Virus record (IMG/VR): IMGVR_UViG_3300044825_000382
Location: 1-38,357 of that record
Source of the DNA: a virus
Direction: 5' to 3' (one strand)
DNA: 38,357 nucleotides
Shown: piece after piece, positions 34,152-37,961 of the stretch
Layout of the letters: each line of letters begins with the position of its first letter
How positions within the stretch are numbered: position 1 is the stretch's first letter
Notes under the pieces: generated by a model
Databases searched by the model: none
The model's input: only the letters and a program-made list of their open reading frames with translations
What the model was told of the DNA's origin: nothing
Translations under genes and position numbers: made by a program

Positions 34152-34293
34152 TGCGTTGCTGTTCCCCTAGTGCGAACGAACGATCAACCAGGCACTTAGT
34201 CCGACCACGCCAGTTATCTACGGCCTCTGATGTCAAGCCAACTGACGACGCATAACATGATCGGCAGTTACAGGTGCGCGTGCGGTTCTTCAT
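34144..34293 (-). CDS. Small Cys-rich basic protein
   Basis: 49 aa: [20 protein letters not shown] then [15 protein letters not shown]8-x-C10-x2-C13 and a later C give a possible zinc site. ATGA overlap with the 150-aa gene upstream and 8-base overlap with the endonuclease downstream argue for translation. Family not recognised. Confidence 0.6.
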
Positions 34294-34742
34294 GCCGTCA
34301 CCTCGTCTGCGTCCCACGAGAACGACTGCTGGCACTTAGAACAAGTCACACCTTCATCGTCAGACCAAGCAGGACGGTCACAATGCGACCACTTATCGCC
34401 GTCATAAGAAAAGCCGTTACCTTCGGCAGTCTCACCCGGCACAGCAAAACCGAGATCATTCCACTCGTCACGCGCCCAGTCATAGATGAACTGGTAGTCC
34501 AACTGTTCTTCGATACCTTTGCGCCACAGGTAGGTAAGGCCGAACTTCTGCCATTCATCGTCGGTCATGTTCCACGAACCAGACCCACCACCTGAACTGT
34601 TCGGGTTGATCGCGTCTTCGATGTCCAAACGGGTCACGCACATGATCTTCATGTCGTGGTCCTGTTCGATCTTGTTCAGCAAAGTGAACACTTGCTCTCG
34701 GCTTAGTGCCGAAACGCTTTCGATTATGTCTTGCGGTTTCAT
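34290..34742 (-). CDS. Hypothetical protein with C-terminal zinc-type motif
   Basis: 150 aa. An N-terminal helix (IIESVSALSREQVFTLLNKI), a middle domain with VTRLDIEDAINP, WNMTDDEWQKFGLTYLWRKG and DWARDEWNDLGFAVPG, and a C-terminal HCDRPAW ... CSKCQQSFSW ribbon. It is preceded by tRNA-like element 1, a GTAA-loop hairpin and the purine-rich leader with AAGAAAGGACAAC. No family assigned; the acidic Trp-rich middle could be an inhibitor or adaptor of a host protein. Confidence 0.7.
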   Translation of the reverse strand: MKPQDIIESVSALSREQVFTLLNKIEQDHDMKIMCVTRLDIEDAINPNSSGGGSGSWNMTDDEWQKFGLTYLWRKGIEEQLDYQFIYDWARDEWNDLGFAVPGETAEGNGFSYDGDKWSHCDRPAWSDDEGVTCSKCQQSFSWDADEVTA

Positions 34743-34743
34743 G

Positions 34744-34786
34744 TTGTCCTTTCTTGTTGTTGTTTCCAGTCTTCCCGTTACCGGGA
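34744..34786 (-). promoter_or_regulatory. Stem-loop plus CAA-rich leader, gene at 34742
   Basis: TCCCG-GTAA-CGGGA (34786-34773, a GNRA-type loop) followed by GGAAACAACAACAAG-AAAGGACA. The same leader, base for base over more than 20 positions, precedes the genes starting at 36396 and (with one change) 35167. CAA repeats are unstructured and the AAAGGA is the ribosome site. Confidence 0.75.
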
Positions 34787-34788
34787 GT

Positions 34789-34833
34789 GCGTAGCCGAGA
34801 ATCGAACCCGGCTCAACCCACCAGGGTCTACGC
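34789..34833 (-). ncRNA. tRNA-like mini-element 1 (acceptor stem plus T-arm, no anticodon arm)
   Basis: Read on the minus strand from 34833: GCGTAG (acceptor 5'), A, CCC-TGGT-GGG mini-hairpin, TTGAG linker, T-arm CCGGG-TTCGATT-CTCGG, then CTACGC (acceptor 3'). The T-loop has the invariant TTCRA of tRNA. It starts 2 bases after a stop codon and ends 3 bases before the leader hairpin. Two further copies with different but still paired stems lie at 36490-36446 and 36863-36818. Structure is from reading complementarity; processing is inferred. Confidence 0.8.
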
Positions 34834-34835
34834 TT

Positions 34836-34988
34836 CTACTTTGCTCGACGATCACGCTCGGCCAACAACTCGACCAACATCGAGCGCAAGCGATCACGCT
34901 CGCCCGGCATACACACACCGCACAAAGACGACCGCACGGCATGAATACGCCAGGCCAGTTCCAGGCCCGTGATGTTCTCGACGCTCAC
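34836..34988 (-). CDS. Small helical protein with GTGA-coupled start
   Basis: 50 aa: MSVENITGLELAWRIHAVRS, SLCGVCMPGERDRLRSMLVE, LLAERDRRAK. CGVC could bind metal or be redox active; the last 25 residues form a charged helix. GTG 34988 overlaps the stop of the 60-aa gene (GTGA), the same junction as elsewhere in these operons. It is too short for usual ORF lists but fills the gap up to the tRNA-like element. Confidence 0.65.
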   Translation of the reverse strand: MSVENITGLELAWRIHAVRSSLCGVCMPGERDRLRSMLVELLAERDRRAK

Positions 34989-35167
34989 CCGAACACCGGC
35001 CTGTTCACGATCTCGACGAACGCCGTCGAGTCGAAAGATGGGTCATTGCTGAACGCCTTGACGAAACAGTTGACCGCCCCGGCCATAGCCATGTCTGCGG
35101 GTAGTTTCTTGTTAGCGATTTGCGCCATTACTGACGCAAGCACTTCGGCAACTTCGTTGCTGTTCAT
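34985..35167 (-). CDS. Small hypothetical protein, first gene of minus operon B
   Basis: 60 aa: MNSNEVAEVLASVMAQIANK, KLPADMAMAGAVNCFVKAFS, NDPSFDSTAFVEIVNRPVFG. Helical. Start ATG 35167 is fixed by the strong AAGAAAGGAAACC site; upstream sequence is a stem-loop and promoter. Being the first cistron after an early-type promoter, it may be a host-takeover protein. Not recognised. Confidence 0.7.
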   Translation of the reverse strand: MNSNEVAEVLASVMAQIANKKLPADMAMAGAVNCFVKAFSNDPSFDSTAFVEIVNRPVFG

Positions 35168-35197
35168 TGGTTTCCTTTCTTGTTGTTGTTTCCGTTC

Positions 35198-35212
35198 GTC
35201 GGTTGCTCCGAC
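35198..35212 (-). promoter_or_regulatory. 5'-terminal stem-loop of operon B mRNA
   Basis: GTCGG-AGCAA-CCGAC begins 7 bases after the -10 hexamer, at the predicted transcription start, so the mRNA should open directly with the hairpin. It is followed by GAACGGAAACAACAACAAG and AAAGG. Confidence 0.6.
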
Positions 35213-35219
35213 AAAACAC

Positions 35220-35248
35220 ACCCTACTACACCCGTCACACCCTGTCAA
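35220..35248 (-). promoter_or_regulatory. Sigma-70-type promoter of minus operon B
   Basis: TTGACA (35248-35243), 17-bp spacer, TAGGGT (35225-35220), inside TTTGACTTGACAGGGTGTGA. About 45 bp including the upstream TTCACA region closely match the operon A promoter at 37315-37343, so the promoter cassette appears duplicated. Confidence 0.75.
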
Positions 35249-35269
35249 GTCAAACTTGTGTGAAGTTCG

Positions 35270-35521
35270 TCACACCCCACTAGCAGGGGGAACAGCCCCG
35301 TCACCATCGAACACCTGTTCGACGAACACCTGTTCGCCCCGAGGAACATAACACCCCGAACACAACACCATGTCATGATCAGGACGCCACCAACCCAACC
35401 CAAGCACCGCTTTCGACGGCGCACTCGATACCGCGATCACCTGACGACACGACTCACACGCGACGAGCGTACCGCTACGACACGCACGCCGAACCGCCTG
35501 CCTAAACCCTGACTCTTCCAT
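35270..35521 (-). CDS. Small zinc-ribbon protein, last gene of operon A
   Basis: 83 aa. C-x2-C in ACESCRQVIAVSSAPSKAVL and C-x2-C in LCSGCYVPRGEQVF, 30 residues apart, form a likely zinc ribbon; basic N-terminus (FRQAVRRACRSGT). ATG 35521 overlaps the previous stop by one base (TAATG). Its stop codon lies inside the upstream part of the operon B promoter cassette. Confidence 0.7.
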   Translation of the reverse strand: MEESGFRQAVRRACRSGTLVACESCRQVIAVSSAPSKAVLGLGWWRPDHDMVLCSGCYVPRGEQVFVEQVFDGDGAVPPASGV

Positions 35522-35715
35522 TACCACACCTCATCATGACGGCATTGTAGAAAGAAGTCGCGTAACACTATCGGCCTGCCGTCGTCGTCGGTCCATGTGT
35601 CTTTGTGCTTGTTGTGCGTCAGCCCTGGCGTGTCACCGGCCCAGTCTGCTAGGTCTTTGTAGCCACGCCCGGCGAGCCATTCGCGGATTAGCGTCTCGTC
35701 GAGATCGTCTTTCAC
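35521..35715 (-). CDS. Small hypothetical protein
   Basis: 64 aa: MKDDLDETLIREWLAGRGYK, DLADWAGDTPGLTHNKHKDT, WTDDDGRPIVLRDFFLQCRH. GTG 35715 with AAAGGACAACAA upstream and GTGA overlap with the membrane peptide gene; the longer frame upstream is antisense-like Arg/Val sequence and the overlapping real gene is in another frame. Not recognised. Confidence 0.65.
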   Translation of the reverse strand: MKDDLDETLIREWLAGRGYKDLADWAGDTPGLTHNKHKDTWTDDDGRPIVLRDFFLQCRHDEVW

Positions 35716-35858
35716 TTGTTGTCCTTTCGGTCGTAGTCTCGGTCCCACTTCCAGGCTAACCACAAGCCAACCCCAGCCACGACTGCGACGAACAAGCCGA
35801 GCCACGGGAACCCGGTCACGCGCTCGCACTCGACGAGCAGACACTCGCCGTCAGTCAC
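35712..35858 (-). CDS. Single-pass membrane micropeptide
   Basis: 48 aa: MTDGECLLVECERVTGFPWL, GLFVAVVAGVGLWLAWKWDR, DYDRKDNK. One membrane helix (about 16-37) followed by a charged cytoplasmic tail. GTGA overlaps on both sides couple it to its neighbours. Role unknown; early phage membrane peptides often block superinfection or alter host envelope functions. Confidence 0.65.
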   Translation of the reverse strand: MTDGECLLVECERVTGFPWLGLFVAVVAGVGLWLAWKWDRDYDRKDNK

Positions 35859-36064
35859 TTGGTCGCCTCATCTAGAACGAGCCGATGAGCGCGACCCAAA
35901 AACCTACGGCGGTCAAACCTGCGCGACGATAGACCGAACTGGTTAGCAAGGTCGGCGGTCAGGGCAGACAGCACCCACACAGTCTGCGTGTCGCCGTGTG
36001 TCACGATTCGACGGTTGGCACGGTCGAGCGCGTCGGCGATCATGTCGTAATCGCGTCGCCTCAC
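35855..36064 (-). CDS. Small basic helical protein
   Basis: 69 aa from GTG 36064: MRRRDYDMIADALDRANRRI, VTHGDTQTVWVLSALTADLA, RRFDRRRFLGRAHRLVLDEA. Helical and Arg-rich. YDMIADALDRANRRI then WVLSALTADLA is a pattern common in tiny actinophage proteins of unknown role. The start is set by the GTGA junction; an upstream GTG at 36076 is possible. Confidence 0.7.
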   Translation of the reverse strand: MRRRDYDMIADALDRANRRIVTHGDTQTVWVLSALTADLANQFGLSSRRFDRRRFLGRAHRLVLDEATK

Positions 36065-36396
36065 TTGGTCACCCACCCCGAAATAACTTCGGTCACCGAT
36101 AGGTCGGCGCGACGCTCAGAACCCGGCACATACATTGCCACCGCGCCACTATCACAAGTAGACACGACCCAAGTACCAGCCCAGCCAGCCCGGTCAAGAT
36201 ACGCCTGAACCGCCTGAACATAGTTCTCAGTCAGCCCTAGCGAATGGTCCCAGCCCACCGACACACGGTTCGGGTCAGAGCCTGCCGTAGGTGGGTCGAA
36301 CCTCTGAACCCGAATCCGTGAGCCTCGCGTATTCGTCGGCCCGTAATACCGGCAACGAATCACCGCCCGTCCGCTCTCTACCGCTTTGCCTGTCAT
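36061..36396 (-). CDS. Hypothetical beta-rich protein
   Basis: 111 aa: AVIRCRYYGPTNTRGSRIRV, QRFDPPTAGSDPNRVSVGWD, NYVQAVQAYLDRAGWAGTWV, YVPGSERRADLSVTEVISGW. A single alpha/beta domain; the NTRGSR-(I)-V start and AV-AYLDRAGW helix are seen in small actinophage proteins of unknown function. The true start is ATG 36396 (AAAGGACAAGAC upstream); an earlier in-frame ATG lies in the leader. It is the cistron after tRNA-like element 2. Confidence 0.7.
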   Translation of the reverse strand: MTGKAVESGRAVIRCRYYGPTNTRGSRIRVQRFDPPTAGSDPNRVSVGWDHSLGLTENYVQAVQAYLDRAGWAGTWVVSTCDSGAVAMYVPGSERRADLSVTEVISGWVTK

Positions 36397-36400
36397 TGTC

Positions 36401-36442
36401 TTGTCCTTTCTTGTTGTTGTTTCCATTCACCCCGAACGGGGT
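36401..36442 (-). promoter_or_regulatory. Stem-loop plus CAA-rich leader, gene at 36396
   Basis: ACCCC-GTTC-GGGGT (36442-36429) followed by GAATGGAAACAACAACAAG-AAAGGACAA. Same leader as at 34767-34744. It lies 3 bases (GCT) after tRNA-like element 2. Confidence 0.7.
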
Positions 36443-36445
36443 AGC

Positions 36446-36490
36446 ACCCTGTCCCGGAATCGAACCGAGACTAGCCCACCAGGGCAGGGC
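36446..36490 (-). ncRNA. tRNA-like mini-element 2
   Basis: From 36490 on the minus strand: GCCCTG (acceptor 5'), CCC-TGGT-GGG, CTAGT, T-arm CTCGG-TTCGATT-CCGGG, A, CAGGGT (acceptor 3', one G-U pair). Starts 7 bases after the stop of the 91-aa gene. Relative to element 1 the acceptor and T-stems have changed on both strands and remain paired. Confidence 0.8.
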
Positions 36491-36497
36491 TGTCTAG

Positions 36498-36773
36498 TCA
36501 CCGAACGAAACCGGCCTCGACGATAGGGCGGAGACCCTTAGGCCACCGCGACACCTTGCCGTCAGGCTCAATACGGAACGTTCCGACCTTGCGCCCCGTC
36601 GTCATCGAGAACACCTGTCCCGTAATCGCCCCGTCGTACTGCTCCCGACCCACGTCGTAGAAGAGGCGCTCCCCTGCCACCTCGTAGCCATTCTGTAATC
36701 CGGTCTGCTTGTAGCAGACTTCCGACCACGAGCGTTCTACCTCGCTCGCGCAAGCGGTACATGACCAGCCCAT
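36498..36773 (-). CDS. Hypothetical protein with N-terminal CxxC
   Basis: 91 aa: MGWSCTACASEVERSWSEVC, YEVAGERLFYDVGREQYDGA, ITGQVFSMTTGRKVGTFRIE, PDGKVSRWPKGLRPIVEAGF. C5-x2-C8 and C20 near the N-terminus, then a beta domain. ATG 36773 has AAGAAAGGACAAAG upstream and follows tRNA-like element 3 with its hairpin. Not recognised. Confidence 0.7.
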   Translation of the reverse strand: MGWSCTACASEVERSWSEVCYKQTGLQNGYEVAGERLFYDVGREQYDGAITGQVFSMTTGRKVGTFRIEPDGKVSRWPKGLRPIVEAGFVR

Positions 36774-36795
36774 AACTTTGTCCTTTCTTCCGTTC

Positions 36796-36814
36796 ACCTC
36801 TCACCGTGAGAGGT
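36796..36814 (-). promoter_or_regulatory. 8-bp stem-loop leader, gene at 36773
   Basis: ACCTCTCA-CGG-TGAGAGGT, then GAACGGAAGAAAGGACAAAG. It lies 3 bases (GCT) after tRNA-like element 3, the same spacing as in element 2. Longest of the leader stems. Confidence 0.7.
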
Positions 36815-36817
36815 AGC

Positions 36818-36863
36818 ACCCGGTCGGGGAGTCGAACCCCGACACGCCCAACCCGGGCCGGGT
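36818..36863 (-). ncRNA. tRNA-like mini-element 3
   Basis: From 36863 on the minus strand: ACCCGG (acceptor 5'), CCC-GGGTT-GGG, CGTGT, T-arm CGGGG-TTCGACT-CCCCG, A, CCGGGT (acceptor 3', all six pairs canonical). Starts 7 bases after the stop of the zinc-protein gene. T-loop TTCGACT differs from the others at one position that is variable in tRNA too. Confidence 0.8.
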
Positions 36864-37314: not shown

Positions 37315-37343
37315 ACCATACCAACCCCCCGTCACCCTGTCAA
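37315..37343 (-). promoter_or_regulatory. Sigma-70-type promoter of minus operon A
   Basis: Consensus TTGACA (37343-37338), 17-bp spacer, TATGGT (37320-37315), within ATTTGACTTGACAGGGTG. The -10 is the same as at 29024-29029. The best promoter in the window. Confidence 0.8.
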
Positions 37344-37550: not shown

Positions 37551-37961
37551 GATTTCAGGCGGACGATTCGGCCACAAATCAAGAGGACAAGAACCCGGGG
37601 TCTGCCGAAGGCACTCCGACCGGGGTATACATATTAGCCGGTAGCGAGATGTGTGGTTTTGTTTGGTTGGGGGCGGGGGCGGTGTGTTGGGGGTGTGTGG
37701 TTCCCGAGTCTCGGGGGTGAAGGAAAGAGAGAGGTTTATTGCCCACCCCTCTCGTTGCCACTATGAGAGTCCCGACCGTTGTTTTGTGACGCGGTTCACG
37801 TCGAGTTGTTGTTGTGTTGGTGCTTGCGCTTGCCTGCTCCCTCGCTGACTGTCTGAGCCGTTCGGGGGGTCTATGCGGGGGACATGGAGGGTCTACCCAC
37901 GTTTCCGTGTGTGAGGCCCGCACCTTGCAAGGGGTGTACGCCAACCGAATGTTCGATAGTT

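Follow-up and report, generated by a model that had tools for sequence, protein, structure and literature searches.

Anticodon-less mini-tRNAs as probable promoter substitutes in phage operons

The window analyzed here, the complete 38,357-nt virus record IMGVR_UViG_3300044825_000382 of IMG/VR, raises the question of what three short tRNA-like folds that lack an anticodon arm might be doing between the protein-coding genes of a phage operon. A preliminary description of this DNA had listed three recurring elements of 45 to 46 nt on the minus strand, and direct reading of the sequence confirmed all of them (designated A, B, and C) at the coordinates given below, together with the promoters, leaders, and open reading frames (ORFs) around them.

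Anatomy and placement of the three elements

37315..37343, minus strand: promoter-like TTGACA-N17-TATGGT at the head of the first segment
37289..37307, minus strand: 5' hairpin of the promoter-born mRNA of the first segment, ~5 to 7 nt past the -10 box (about +1)
36818..36863, minus strand: t-element C (mini-tRNA), ACCCGG-CCC-GGGTT-GGG-CGTGT-CGGGG-TTCGACT-CCCCG-A-CCGGGT; acceptor 36863-36858/36823-36818, D arm 36857-36847 (loop GGGTT), linker 36846-36842, T arm 36841-36825 (loop TTCGACT)
36795..36815, minus strand: leader hairpin after C, 9 bp, beginning one nt past the predicted RNase Z cut (36817|36816)
36498..36773, minus strand: ORF between C and B, 91 aa, ATG at 36773, no family match
36446..36490, minus strand: t-element B (mini-tRNA), GCCCTG-CCC-TGGT-GGG-CTAGT-CTCGG-TTCGATT-CCGGG-A-CAGGGT; acceptor 36490-36485/36451-36446, D arm CCC-TGGT-GGG, T loop TTCGATT
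36428..36443, minus strand: leader hairpin after B, then the GGAAACAACAACAAGAAAGGA leader with SD
36061..36396, minus strand: ORF after B, 111 aa, phrog_3199 (unknown function), heading a run of overlapping ORFs
35220..35248, minus strand: promoter-like TTGACA-N17-TAGGGT at the head of the second segment
35198..35212, minus strand: 5' hairpin GTCGGAGCAACCGAC of the second segment, then the same GGAAACAACAACAAGAAAGGA leader as after A and B
34836..34988, minus strand: ORF before A, 50 aa, its TAG ending 2 nt before A
34789..34833, minus strand: t-element A (mini-tRNA), GCGTAG-ACCC-TGGT-GGGT-TGAG-CCGGG-TTCGATT-CTCGG-CTACGC; acceptor GCGTAG/CTACGC, D arm ACCC-TGGT-GGGT, T loop TTCGATT
34773..34786, minus strand: leader hairpin after A, then the same GGAAACAACAACAAGAAAGGA leader as after B
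34290..34742, minus strand: ORF after A, 150 aa, ATG at 34742, no family match

All three elements follow a common plan that consists of a 6-bp acceptor stem, a D hairpin of 3 to 4 bp with GG in its loop, a linker of 4 to 5 nt, a 5-bp T stem with a TTCGA(T/C)T loop, 0 to 1 nt, and the 3' strand of the acceptor. The CCC/GGG mini-hairpin noted earlier is indeed present and can be identified more precisely as a D arm that carries the GG of the tRNA elbow. In RNAfold predictions, each element folds on its own as a cloverleaf minus the anticodon arm, followed by the downstream hairpin (z scores of -2.5 to -2.8). The distances from the end of the upstream stop codon to the start of the element are 2 nt for A and 7 nt for both B and C, and a hairpin begins 2 nt past each of them, in agreement with the spacing given previously (a stop codon 2 to 7 bases before, a leader hairpin just after). 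Copy A was recovered at E=3e-6 by the first covariance model, although it was outside the training set of that model; covariance-model searches found no fourth copy in the window. A search for relatives of the 150-aa protein encoded after A likewise returned none.

The GGAAACAACAACAAGAAAGGA leader lies downstream of the TTGACA-N17-TAGGGT promoter and also downstream of A and B, and both promoter-born mRNAs of the window start with a hairpin ~5 to 7 nt past the -10 box. A terminase relative of the window, L236, has nine leader modules, 2 of them after promoters and 7 after mini-tRNAs, while in L237 and L238 one of the elements sits at the start of a promoter rather than between genes. In the window and its relatives, one and the same hairpin-leader occurs behind promoters and behind mini-tRNAs, so the element replaces a transcription start; in these genomes, it takes the place of the promoter. 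The boxes downstream of the L024 elements were considered as possible promoters and rejected, as their spacing is mostly 12 to 14 nt and the segment consists of the hairpin and SD.

The same arrangement is seen in the wider set of elements described below. Same-strand stop codons (of ORFs of at least 50 aa) were found at -12 to +15 nt in 45 of 70 elements, compared to 8.7% of random positions and 6 of 70 on the antisense strand. A hairpin within 8 nt past the element, most commonly starting at +3, was detected in 32 of 66 cases against 3.3 expected, leaving roughly every second element with no significant hairpin downstream. Typically, it sets in 1 to 4 nt past the predicted cut and is followed by an SD and a start codon. 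A pyrimidine (C or T) occupies position +2 in 62 of 66 elements, G is the commonest first acceptor base (36 of 66), and a CCA is encoded in just 1 of 66.

Distribution and covariation across viruses

A search of IMG/VR with a single D+T pattern matched 88 viral stretches, most of which keep the plan with wholly different acceptor sequences. Ordinary tRNAs (e.g., L022, L030, L049, and L267) and a separate CCCGGGTGGAAAC group (L010, L013, L033, L035, and L081) were set aside; L015 carries a tRNA-like array. Acceptor stems of at least 5.5 bp were present in 31 of 40 viral matches versus 9 of 39 matches to the identical pattern in bacterial and archaeal genomes (3 to 6% with shuffled partners in the latter). 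A covariance model (R1), built from an alignment of 10 sequences, yielded 148 matches at E≤1, the weaker ones including true tRNAs, and its matches served to build a second model (R2). In the 72 strong matches, 96.2% of helix cells are paired compared to 42 to 54% in slid controls, and 295 cells show double changes versus 49 to 58 in the controls, with all three helices covarying. The covariance-model search for homologs with compensatory changes that the preliminary description had proposed thus had a strongly positive outcome, and its claim of covariation in the acceptor and T stems is borne out, since every helix covaries across many unrelated phages. The elements range from 44 to 49 nt, without an anticodon arm, and several phages carry 2 to 10 copies (ten in the phage of L024, five in that of L078).

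The elbow covaries as well. Among the D-loop/T-loop combinations tested in IMG/VR, GG/TTC accounted for 39 real elements and AG/TGC for 11 of 11, whereas the mixed combinations gave 0 of 3 (GG/TGC) and 1 of 10 (AG/TTC), the single case being an ordinary tRNA-Leu. These counts imply covariation between position 18 of the D loop and position 55 of the T loop (p ~3e-11 without the tRNA-Leu, a value that is only indicative, as the sequences are related by descent) and, hence, formation of the tRNA elbow. AG/TGC copies occur on several contigs that are unrelated to one another, with Lactobacillaceae represented; both L239 copies have a TAGT D loop and a TGCGAT T loop. In the relatives L236 to L238, T loops without TTCRA also lack the GG in the D loop (8 of 8 versus 0 to 2 of 8, the copies being nonindependent). 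A few of the relative copies combine noncanonical T loops (GTCATA, GTCGTA) with a D loop devoid of GG, so either some elements can do without an elbow or these particular ones are in decay.

No element match was found in 31 of 36 records of terminase relatives (many of them fragments), which indicates that the element is dispensable. DNA similarity searches revealed no named phage related to the window, L024, L064, L007, L047, or L248; the only named phages matched were those of Lactobacillaceae, among them phage P2 of Latilactobacillus curvatus TMW 1.706, which matches the element-bearing stretch of L245 at 96.6%. Among cellular genomes, the element was found in Lactobacillaceae (5 of 151), Halobacteriaceae (4 of 26), and Streptomyces (7 of 101), a sporadic presence that fits mobile elements. 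Some haloarchaeal copies sit in apparently cellular operons. A search of Rfam 15 assigned the elements to no family at the gathering score. They form a large class that is missing from Rfam, is undetected by ARAGORN, and is spread over many unrelated phages.

Relationship to known t-elements

In these elements, a tRNA-like fold with an acceptor, T arm, and elbow is combined with the absence of a functional tRNA (ARAGORN finds none), a genomically encoded CCA is absent apart from the one case mentioned, and, judging from sequence, they directly adjoin the ends of mRNAs or rRNA (stop codons, start leaders, and the 5S cases described below), which are the features of t-elements. Canonical tRNAs are excluded by size (~73 to 90 nt), by the missing anticodon arm, and by zero ARAGORN hits. 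Similarly, tmRNA is excluded, as neither ARAGORN nor Rfam gave a tmRNA match with a tag reading frame, and so is tRNA-Sec (RF01852), with 18.1 bits against a gathering score of 47 (E=3.1) and the UGGU D loop as the sole common feature. The tRNA-like domain of tmRNA has an acceptor, a T arm, and a D-loop elbow but no anticodon arm; its fold therefore resembles that of the phage element, which, however, has no mRNA-like part.

In three haloarchaea (L296, L318, and L319), model matches end ~2 nt before the 5S rRNA, identified by Rfam in L296 and by sequence in the other two. The training set of the model that found them consisted of viral copies plus a few taken from cellular genomes, none of them linked to rRNA. 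According to the literature cited here, tRNase Z processing of the haloarchaeal t-element makes the 5' end of 5S rRNA (Hoelzle 2008, via PMC4326828 and PMC3296008); both RNase P and tRNase Z act on t-elements, and their cleavage leaves a 5' phosphate and a 3' hydroxyl (PMC4326828, PMC3296008). The pre-5S element shares with the phage ones the acceptor, the D arm (TGGT or similar), a ~5-nt linker, and the TTCGATT T arm. It differs in serving archaeal 5S rRNA, whereas the phage copies are several, sequence diverse, and located between protein genes, with a hairpin leader and promoter-like placement.

Plant mitochondrial t-elements are tRNA-like structures at mRNA ends that are cleaved by RNase P and RNase Z (Forner 2007; PMC11658184) and acquire CCA tails (PMC11658184). 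They resemble the phage elements in their tRNA-like fold, location at mRNA ends, and lack of genomic CCA, but are described as organellar homologs of tRNA genes, and the text cited describes neither a hairpin leader nor multicopy punctuation of operons of this kind. Mitochondrial tRNA punctuation also uses tRNA folds to mark cuts in polycistronic RNA, but with functional tRNAs, while the phage element cannot decode. The phage C4 antisense RNA and M3 RNA (PMC11143913) are likewise phage-encoded substrates of host RNase P; they are different RNAs, and the window elements have no Rfam match. Thus, the t-element kind is already known from plant mitochondria and haloarchaea, whereas the phage setting, multicopy use in operons, promoter-like placement, and alternative elbow appear to be new: the open-access literature contained no report of t-elements in phages that could be found, although an unseen report is possible.

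Proposed processing by host enzymes and its alternatives

The likely explanation is that these are phage t-elements cut by the host RNase Z (and probably RNase P) that split operon mRNAs and give the downstream parts hairpin-capped 5' ends. Such an element may be regarded as a tRNA cut down to the acceptor stem, D arm, and T arm, with the elbow kept and the anticodon arm gone. In the operon transcript, it would fold next to the upstream stop codon, where the enzymes of the infected cell would take it for a tRNA precursor. This would be in line with the acceptance of acceptor plus T-arm minihelices by RNase P, tRNase Z, and the CCA enzyme and with the recognition of the tRNA elbow by the flexible arm of tRNase Z (PMC3714273). 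A predicted RNase Z cut after the discriminator base would leave a downstream mRNA with a 5' phosphate, about one unpaired nucleotide, and a stable hairpin, an end equivalent to those made by promoters elsewhere in the same phage. This hairpin should shield the mRNA against decay that depends on its 5' end. Hairpin-led 5' ends are expected to resist such decay by RNase E and RNase J. On the other side, RNase P probably cuts 5' of the element, so that the upstream mRNA would end immediately behind its stop codon and a 45-nt mini-tRNA would be set free. For A, B, and C, respectively, the RNase Z cuts are predicted between +1 and +2, at 34788|34787, 36445|36444, and 36817|36816, and the RNase P cuts just before 34833, 36490, and 36863. 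The earlier proposal that host tRNA-processing enzymes split a polycistronic mRNA is thereby supported at the level of predicted cleavage by the covariation of helices and elbow and by the near absence of encoded CCA, and is further favored by the promoter-shared hairpin leader and the recovery of the haloarchaeal pre-5S t-element.

Alternatively, an uncut mini-tRNA could serve as a stable 3' cap or insulator of the upstream mRNA, perhaps CCA tailed after partial processing, that stops 3' exonucleases and ribosome run-through. The adjoining stop codons, the very stable folds, and the CCA tailing of plant mitochondrial t-elements (PMC11658184) would agree with this unlikely reading, which does not account for the hairpin 1 to 4 nt past the predicted cut, for the promoter-like placement, or for why a tRNA elbow should be needed. 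It is still less probable that RNase P acts alone, cutting on the 5' side so that the downstream mRNA keeps the mini-tRNA as its 5' cap. RNase P needs no more than an acceptor and a T arm (PMC11143913), the acceptor most often starts with G, and in L237 and L238 the element is at the 5' end of the transcript; but the second hairpin just downstream would then be superfluous, promoter-born mRNAs begin directly with that hairpin, and the pre-5S t-element is cut by tRNase Z on its 3' side.

A decoy or sponge that titrates tRNA enzymes, or a switch that gates translational reinitiation, would account for the several copies per genome and the tRNA-like array of L015. Strict intergenic placement with a leader and SD, acceptor sequences that vary between copies, and the lack of any sign of alternative pairing with the start region make this reading highly improbable. 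Like the pure-stability alternative of the preliminary description, decoys and sponges also leave promoter substitution unexplained. Finally, tRNA-like T arms and the presence of true tRNAs at some loci might suggest functionless, degenerate tRNA genes. This idea deserves almost no credence, as the elements of many phages show compensatory changes throughout, in each helix as well as the elbow, and such changes require selection.

Compared to cleavage by host RNase Z, a broader proposal is held somewhat less firmly but still favored: that anticodon-less mini-tRNAs are widespread, unrecognized viral elements acting as portable promoter substitutes, which create hairpin-capped 5' ends through host tRNA-processing enzymes and have evolved an A18-G55 elbow by covariation, in phages of Actinobacteria, Lactobacillaceae, and many unidentified hosts, as well as in haloarchaeal genomes. 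If so, phages would have a general route for dividing mRNAs, beside promoters, terminators, and RNase III or RNase E sites, that relies on the most conserved RNA-processing enzymes of the cell and provides genes of one operon with separate 5' ends without the need for extra promoters. As very small natural substrates of tRNA processing, the elements could be of use in enzyme studies and as portable RNA-splitting parts. The results also suggest that automatic annotation with ARAGORN and Rfam overlooks an entire class of phage RNAs.

A conserved RNA-like region and a separate repeat group

On the minus strand of the window, positions 37681-37957 hold a conserved non-coding RNA-like region of ~275 nt that is common to many relatives (67-93% identity) and whose consensus fold carries compensatory changes in 16 of 41 pairs; a search for an Rfam match found none. 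A separate group of repeats, CCCGGGTGGAAAC ... TTCCTGGTGGAAA ... GGTTCGATTCC, is found in the matched sequence stretches L010, L013, L033, L035, and L081 and lacks acceptor pairing.

An array and gene ends in other matched sequences

The non-coding DNA of L015:7260-9060 carries an array of 14 mini-tRNA-like units (anticodon-less tRNA-like elements), spaced by ~115-150 nt and mostly preceded by a hairpin with a variable stem and a GTGA loop; it resembles a natural small-RNA array with tRNAs as separators. In Lactobacillus phage phiPYB5 (GU323708; L093:4236-4510), one mini-tRNA is followed by two larger tRNA-like structures, both with odd anticodon regions, within a 540-nt non-coding stretch that precedes the gene for the small terminase and lies upstream of a terminator. 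Two elements with the alternative AG/TGC elbow contain the stop codon of the upstream gene, which is the TAG of the D loop in L248:690-730 and the TAG of the acceptor in L245:4113-4150, where the gene product is similar to the CI-like repressor of Latilactobacillus phages.

Copies in bacterial and haloarchaeal genomes

Six Streptomyces genomes (L299-L304:1501-1541) share the near-identical mini-tRNA GCCCCGATGGTCGTAGGCCGGGTTCGACTCCCGGCCGGGGC, followed on its 3' side in L302 by a hairpin and then an ATG. Betaproteobacterial copies (L144, L108, L122, L136, L143, and L145) have true tRNA genes directly downstream. In the haloarchaeal genome L298, mini-tRNAs at 1501-1544 and 2173-2216 separate three genes that lie in tandem and encode similar proteins of the secreted type, and the order mini-tRNA, hairpin, ATG is present in L307, L309, L311, and L315. 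These copies between genes, taken with that shared order, indicate that archaeal operons have the same layout.
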